DNA from: Bacillota bacterium
Lineage (GTDB): Bacteria > Bacillota > Limnochordia > Darwinibacteriales > DTU012
Direction of reading: 5' to 3'
NCBI GenBank assembly: GCA_012837335.1
Contig: DURM01000078.1
Location: forward strand, 1 to 53,318
Length of the DNA: 53,318 nucleotides
Shown here: positions 52,177 to 53,004 of the stretch, one piece after another
Numbering within the stretch: position 1 is the first letter of the stretch
How the letters are laid out: every line of letters begins with the position of its first letter
Notes under the pieces: model-generated
Told to the model about the DNA's origin: nothing
What the model saw: only the letters and a program-made list of their open reading frames with translations
Databases searched by the model: none
Made by a program: the position numbers and the translations under genes

Positions 52177-52191
52177 AGCGGGATAAAACGA

Positions 52192-52226
52192 AGAGGGTGA
52201 AGCGTTAAGCTTCACCCTCTCTTTGT
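52192..52226 (+). terminator. Terminator between the GH2 gene and veg (convergent)
   Basis: AGAGGGTGAAGC (52192-52203) pairs perfectly with GCTTCACCCTCT (52209-52220), loop GTTAA. It is followed by CTTTGT on plus and TTCGTTTTA on minus, so it can serve both genes. Confidence 0.85.
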
Positions 52227-52227
52227 G

Positions 52228-52485
52228 CTAGGAGACTCGATCCTGTTCTTGAAATTCAAGTTCTACTGTTTTTGTTAGTAAGTCGGCGTAGGTGTAAGAT
52301 GCATTTTTAACAGCTGCTGTTTTGTCCAGTTTGACAACAAAGTGCCTCGGATAAGTTTCAGCAACGATACCTCTATTAATCGTCTTCTTCTTACGACTGT
52401 GATTGACGGTTAAAACTACCTTCTTCCCAAGATTCTTGTCCATGAATGTACGGATTTGATCAATTGTTAGCGGTTGACCTGACAT
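52228..52485 (-). CDS. veg: Veg family protein
   Basis: An 85-residue Veg homologue. NLGKKVVLTVNHSRKKKTI, then GIVAETYPRHFVVKLD and YTYADLLTKTVELEF match Veg of Bacillus, which stimulates biofilm genes and is one of the most strongly transcribed genes there. ATG 52485 is six bases from AAGGGGGAG; the frame extends to 52503 without a better start. Its upstream region holds a c-di-AMP riboswitch about 300 nt away. Confidence 0.93.
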   Translation of the reverse strand: MSGQPLTIDQIRTFMDKNLGKKVVLTVNHSRKKKTINRGIVAETYPRHFVVKLDKTAAVKNASYTYADLLTKTVELEFQEQDRVS

Positions 52486-52633
52486 CAACGTCTCCCCCTT
52501 CATTCATTGAATTAATGCTGAGCCATTAAGCTTCGACACTAGACTTCCGCATTCGACCGTTCACCACAAGTTACCCTTATTAACGACATTAAACTGGTAT
52601 ATTGTCTGGAATTTGACTTGTGCAGACCGTGTC

Positions 52634-52759
52634 TCAATGTCCATCAAGTCTTACATGAGGATTGGGACGTTGATTATGTGATATTTTGCAGCATTGAGTA
52701 GCAGTAAAGCGGAATATGTTAATCGGAAAGTTAGCGTGGATGTTATTGCAGATTTGCAT
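52634..52759 (-). CDS. Possible small ORF between riboswitch and veg
   Basis: A 41-codon frame starting ATG 52759, nine bases after AAAGGAG, and in frame with a further ATG at 52768. The product (beginning MQICNNIHANFPINIF) matches no family I know and has no obvious membrane or signal segment. It may be the real first gene of the riboswitch transcript or a chance frame in the veg 5' UTR. Between it and veg (52486-52633) I see nothing certain. Confidence 0.25.
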   Translation of the reverse strand: MQICNNIHANFPINIFRFTATQCCKISHNQRPNPHVRLDGH

Positions 52760-52785
52760 GCGGTCCATCTCCTTTCAACTATTAT

Positions 52786-52841
52786 GAAATCAAAAAGCGT
52801 GATCTACTTTTAACGACATCTTCTAAAGTAGATTCACGCTT
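52786..52841 (-). terminator. Riboswitch expression-platform terminator
   Basis: On the minus strand AAGCGTGAATCTACTTT (52841-52825) pairs with AAAGTAGATCACGCTT (52810-52795), 16 bp with one bulge, followed by TTTGATTT. It begins a few bases after the c-di-AMP aptamer, as expected for transcriptional control. Confidence 0.9.
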
Positions 52842-52847
52842 GGAGTA

Positions 52848-52959
52848 CTCCTACGAGGTTAGCTGACGGATTAGGACACCCAAGTTGCCCCTCTTGATAA
52901 TACTATCAAGATTCACCCCTAAAATCGGTTCCCCCGCTTCATAATAATTGAATTCGGAG
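52848..52959 (-). promoter_or_regulatory. c-di-AMP riboswitch (ydaO-yuaA type)
   Basis: The minus strand carries the hallmarks of this class in order: CTCCGAATTC, GAAGCGGGGGAACC, AGGGGTGAATC, AGAGGGGCAACTTGGG and AATCCGTCAGCTAACCTCGT, closed by CTCC/GGAG. These blocks match the ydaO leader as I remember it. The class normally turns genes off when c-di-AMP is high and controls cell-wall, osmolyte and potassium functions. Here the transcript reads toward veg. Confidence 0.9.
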
Positions 52960-52975
52960 ATTATGTTGTGTCTTA

Positions 52976-53004
52976 AGTATACCAGAAAAGTGAGTAAAAA
53001 TCAA
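52976..53004 (-). promoter_or_regulatory. Promoter of the riboswitch transcript
   Basis: Minus-strand TTGATT (53004-52999), 17-nt spacer ending in TGG, then TATACT (52981-52976). Transcription would begin near 52969, at the 5' edge of the riboswitch. Confidence 0.8.

Follow-up and report, generated by a model that had tools for sequence, protein, structure and literature searches.

A c-di-AMP riboswitch very likely (probability about 0.85) controls the transcription of veg2, a paralog of veg specific to the order, and would do so by ligand-induced termination. Both lie on the minus strand of the window, by which we mean the whole 53,318-nucleotide stretch of DNA that was analysed. A sequence-only reading had proposed that c-di-AMP controls veg itself; the riboswitch very probably does read into the gene, as it supposed, but the gene is the paralog veg2, and the canonical veg is without a riboswitch. 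In the direction of transcription the order is promoter, aptamer, terminator, a 41-codon open reading frame (ORF), a non-coding stretch, veg2, and a second terminator, with the following features.

52976 to 53004, minus strand: sigma-A type promoter, TTGATT-17-TATACT with TG before the -10 (promoter scan).
52832 to 52969, minus strand: c-di-AMP (ydaO) riboswitch aptamer RF00379 (cmscan), P1 arms CUCC (52959-52956) and GGAG (52851-52848).
52839 to 52884, minus strand: predicted antiterminator, arms 52884-52872 and 52853-52839 (folding of the nascent leader).
52790 to 52842, minus strand: intrinsic terminator, stem AAGCGUG..CACGCUU and U-run (folding, -19.0 kcal/mol).
52634 to 52759, minus strand: 41-codon ORF, likely a decayed orfA remnant with its ribosome-binding site retained (alignment with genomes G001 and G004).
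52499 to 52547, minus strand: possible remnant of the orfB 3' end (alignment with the intact G004 copy; weak in the window).
52228 to 52485, minus strand: veg2, second VEG-family gene (PF06257), 85 amino acids, ribosome-binding site GAAGGGGGAG at 52501-52492.
52191 to 52221, minus strand: terminator 3' of veg2, 13 bp stem (sequence scan).

The sole Rfam match in a cmscan of the whole window is RF00379 (c-di-AMP, ydaO) at 52969-52832(-). It spans model positions 1-134 of 134 and scores 88.0 bits (gathering score 38; E 2.7e-19), so that the ydaO model check suggested in the sequence-only reading came out positive at full length; the riboswitch itself is a typical representative of its known class. 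The terminator hairpin lies immediately 3' of the aptamer and ends at about 52790. The other parts described from the sequence, the terminator (-19.0 kcal/mol) and the TTGATT-17-TATACT promoter, were likewise recovered. The promoter scan is weak when taken alone, with five promoter-like sites versus 2.9 expected in shuffles, and we credit the promoter at 53004-52976(-) because it is conserved in relatives, which is the better evidence; promoters of this type precede almost every one of the 21 veg2 leaders, L006 and L017 having weak matches only. The terminator at 52221-52191(-) closes a transcript with one conserved gene. A further RF00379 copy of this genome is situated before a cation/proton antiporter-like gene, a typical target class.

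The veg2 ORF matches the Pfam VEG family (PF06257) with 80.3 bits against a cut-off of 25. A start at 52503 was set aside, as the position of the ribosome-binding site favours the ATG at 52485 as the likely start. The genome (G000; 91 contigs, 98% complete) contains two VEG genes. The canonical copy, veg1, follows ksgA and yabG on contig C58, with ispE next, and has no riboswitch; veg2 is outside this ksgA-yabG-veg cluster, in which veg1 holds the veg place. The two are ~47% identical. veg2 misses the cut-off of the NCBIfam Veg equivalog NF046033 (72.9 versus 135 bits), and veg1 is likewise under it at 104.5 bits. Comparison with G001 gives a dN of 0.04, a dS of 1.44, which is near saturation, and a dN/dS of about 0.03; by this measure veg2 is under purifying selection, and the spacer has meanwhile lost sequence relative to G001. 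An AlphaFold prediction of veg2 made from two sequences has a mean pLDDT of 48, and 3fb9, an uncharacterized protein, is the sole relative found with a solved structure. In G001, the nearest relative, a group II intron match (RF00029; L005 1764-1845(-), 42.1 bits versus 40) is located right behind veg2.

RF00379 and PF06257 matches were collected from each of the 37 genomes available for the order, and their coordinates were compared. The genomes contain 56 veg genes, 35 first copies and 21 second copies. Each of the 21 second copies (in G000, G001, G004, G008, G010, G013, G017-G023, G025-G028, G030, G031, G033, and G035) is preceded at 0.1-0.8 kb by RF00379 in the same orientation, and a riboswitch is found within 0.8 kb upstream of none of the 35 first copies (Fisher p 7e-16, a value that treats the genomes as independent though they are not). 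The survey of ydaO-veg adjacency in related genomes that had been proposed from the sequence thus finds the riboswitch at every veg2. Counted by genus the pairing is present in eight of eight, and with an expectation of ~5e-4 per genome chance adjacency is ruled out. Twelve genomes, in genera g7 and g14, have the riboswitch followed by veg2 with no ORF between them and a gap of only 48-66 nt, in which no promoter-like sites are found except weak ones in G010 (L011); veg2 transcription there must therefore pass through the riboswitch, and these 12 direct leaders mark veg2 itself as the target. At three g7 loci (L041, L042, L043) the riboswitch-veg2 pair is divergent from trkA/trkH-like potassium uptake genes, which fits c-di-AMP biology as a matter of neighbourhood only.

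A phylum-wide Bacillota draw has veg in 87 of 119 genomes and two copies only in G000 and G008, both of them veg2-bearing members of the order, and none of the 36 other genomes of the class has more than one copy. By this distribution veg2 is an order-specific paralog among the genomes searched. Nor is RF00379 directly upstream of veg among the matches listed for the class outside the order and for the phylum sample. In a Veg gene tree a single veg2 clade is not rejected (p-AU 0.34), with too few alignment columns to establish a single origin, and in the window's genus veg2 evolves fast, its grouping with the veg2 of family f3 not being firm. The case for a common origin of the veg2 copies comes instead from the shared riboswitch and orfB synteny.

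The 41-codon ORF had been described as unrecognised and as the only thing between riboswitch and gene. It is present, and a profile search gives no family match, but it is most probably a decayed remnant, and its frame is not conserved: it is partly deleted in G001 and has a stop after a few codons in G004. It occupies the position of orfA and has the same kind of ribosome-binding site (AAAGGAG), which is kept in G001 and G004, and an intact zinc-ribbon gene is found at its position in L076, L086, and L088. In four genomes (G018, G020, G022, G027) the operon reads riboswitch, orfA, orfB, veg2. The orfA products are 55-59 residues long and of the CxxC...CxxC zinc-ribbon type, with sub-threshold Pfam matches only, and orfB (the 105-residue family), whose product has 105-109 residues in these genomes and 103-112 over all copies, has no Pfam or NCBIfam match. 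Of the 73 genomes of the class, 7 carry orfB, in every case downstream of a c-di-AMP riboswitch (loci L076, L086, L088, L097, and L101-L103). Loss of orfA is seen in G026 and G004, loss of both genes in G000, G001, and G008, and the riboswitch stands directly before veg2, with neither gene, throughout genera g7 and g14. The remnant of the orfB 3' end is clearer in the G001-G004 comparison than in the window. Since the frame of the ORF is broken in relatives and veg2 is constrained, the ORF is most probably what is left of a lost operon gene and not a new gene, and veg2 the constant cargo.

Small ORFs follow c-di-AMP riboswitches elsewhere as well. At L083, L084, and L094 the riboswitch is followed only by a 53-63 residue zinc-ribbon-like protein (CxxC...CxxC). 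In the window's own genome, a c-di-AMP riboswitch at C27:37112-37242 (L035 5113-5243; 94 bits) has within ~200 nt, before a convergent gene, a single ORF, which encodes a 30-residue one-helix peptide (MLFPVKLSNKVRFLAAVLFGLFILVMLRFS), possibly a c-di-AMP controlled membrane micropeptide; a similar 30-residue peptide, then orfB, lie behind a riboswitch in G011 (L090).

Folding of the nascent leader, with the terminator 3' arm not yet made, gives a 13-bp helix between 52884-52872 (CUUGGGUGUCCUA) and 52853-52839 (UAGGAGUACUCCAAG). This antiterminator takes up the P1 3' strand (GGAG) and the first terminator bases (AAG), such that closure of P1 and the aptamer, the antiterminator, and the terminator foot are mutually exclusive by folding, and the expression platform is linked to the aptamer. 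The predicted hairpin layout is the usual one for ligand-caused termination. Each of the 21 veg2 leaders has the sequence to make 11-13 of the 13 antiterminator pairs; in G021 a G-C pair is replaced by A-U, the one compensatory change, and G-U occurs once. The arms are largely conserved aptamer sequence, which leaves little room for covariation testing, and conservation alone is no proof of a helix. A terminator of -16.3 to -25.3 kcal/mol is also predicted in all 21, with stem sequences that differ between genera. We infer c-di-AMP binding by the window aptamer from class membership only, and OFF is the likeliest direction given the published behaviour of the ydaO/yuaA class, which PMC5670726 describes as a genetic 'off' switch. 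Transcription would start near 52969, and at low c-di-AMP the nascent RNA would form the antiterminator (52884-52872 with 52853-52839) using the P1 3' strand and the terminator foot, allowing RNA polymerase to continue into veg2. With c-di-AMP bound, P1 would be closed, the antiterminator blocked, the terminator folded, and veg2 off. Two predicted c-di-AMP synthase genes (DAC, PF02457) are present in the window's own genome, and at least one predicted diadenylate cyclase (DAC) gene in every genome of the order.

One alternative is that the riboswitch is a relic of a lost orfA-orfB operon and that veg2 is transcribed, independently of c-di-AMP, from a separate promoter in the spacer. The decay or loss of both orfA and orfB in the window would suit it, as would the long spacer (~350 nt from aptamer to ATG), in which a weak internal promoter is conceivable and 8-of-12 promoter-like matches do occur. 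However, a scan of the minus strand between 52790 and 52485 for a separate veg promoter finds no sigma-A-like site with at least 9 of 12 matches, the window leader is intact, and the g7 and g14 genomes, which lack orfA and orfB, still have the whole series from promoter through aptamer, antiterminator, and terminator to veg2, packed so closely that a further promoter would hardly fit. We regard this alternative as unlikely, and as the main reading it is rejected on the 12 direct riboswitch-veg2 leaders. Even less probable is that a functional small peptide encoded by the 41-codon ORF is the real riboswitch target, with veg2 merely following. The ribosome-binding site of the ORF, AAAGGAG, is a good one and is conserved in G001 and G004, and there are other riboswitches in the order with a small ORF behind them, but the frame is lost in both relatives through the G001 deletion and the early G004 stop, the CxxC motifs are gone, and such an ORF is absent from 12 genomes.

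B. subtilis Veg has a known effect on biofilms, and a third alternative would have c-di-AMP control biofilm formation through Veg as in that species. We consider this very improbable. veg2 does belong to the Pfam VEG family, named after biofilm stimulation in B. subtilis, but it is far below the NF046033 cut-off, and a SinI match over cut-off is absent from the genome (98% complete, in 91 contigs). A 2021 study describes the precise function of Veg as unidentified and suggests a role in RNA metabolism (PMC8307031): a cspB cspD mutant is rescued if veg is lost as well, and Veg is cited there as mRNA-associated in C. difficile. A transfer of the biofilm role from Bacillus, which the sequence-only reading had named, therefore lacks support, given the lack of a SinI match over the cut-off, the 47% identity of veg2 to the genome's own Veg, and this study. 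The preferred reading remains riboswitch control of veg2, with Veg2 presumably an accessory RNA-associated protein rather than a biofilm regulator, whose level would follow c-di-AMP and hence the potassium or osmotic state. A broader and tentative proposal, which we hold to be possible though on balance doubtful, is that the order sets the level of a dedicated RNA-associated Veg2 via c-di-AMP, in the ancestral state along with a zinc-ribbon protein and a new 105-residue family, and that the messenger in this way reaches mRNA metabolism. If true, an RNA-associated Veg2 under a riboswitch would add a second, post-transcriptional layer to c-di-AMP signalling.

Veg is widespread in the Bacillota, and a veg2 under a c-di-AMP sensor would be a testable entry to its function. 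The link has been kept while neighbouring genes were lost, which would connect a Veg protein with c-di-AMP and, through it, with the potassium, osmotic, or envelope state, and the apparent c-di-AMP regulon gains two small protein families and a one-helix peptide. A literature search, outside of which lie the primary ydaO target-gene lists, returned no earlier report of a c-di-AMP-Veg link. As far as searched, what is new is the riboswitch target, veg2, and the conservation of that target, the riboswitch class itself being known.

The leader resembles other c-di-AMP (ydaO/yuaA) riboswitches of RF00379 in its full aptamer, terminator-type expression platform, and promoter, and differs in having a VEG paralog as its target; the targets covered by a review are transporters for K+ and amino acids, and cell wall and osmotic-shock proteins (PMC7266159). 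The large genomes of family f37 similarly have RF00379 upstream of veg on the same strand, but at a distance of 3-4 kb with yabE-, rnmV-, ksgA-, and yabG-like genes between, and control of veg by that riboswitch would be indirect at best. In G146 (L106) RF00379 comes ~180 nt after a canonical veg, in the same orientation, as the leader of the following gene. veg2 shares the Pfam VEG domain and a similar length with B. subtilis veg and with veg1 of its own genome, and is set apart from both by its location outside the ksgA-yabG-veg cluster and its predicted control by a riboswitch.
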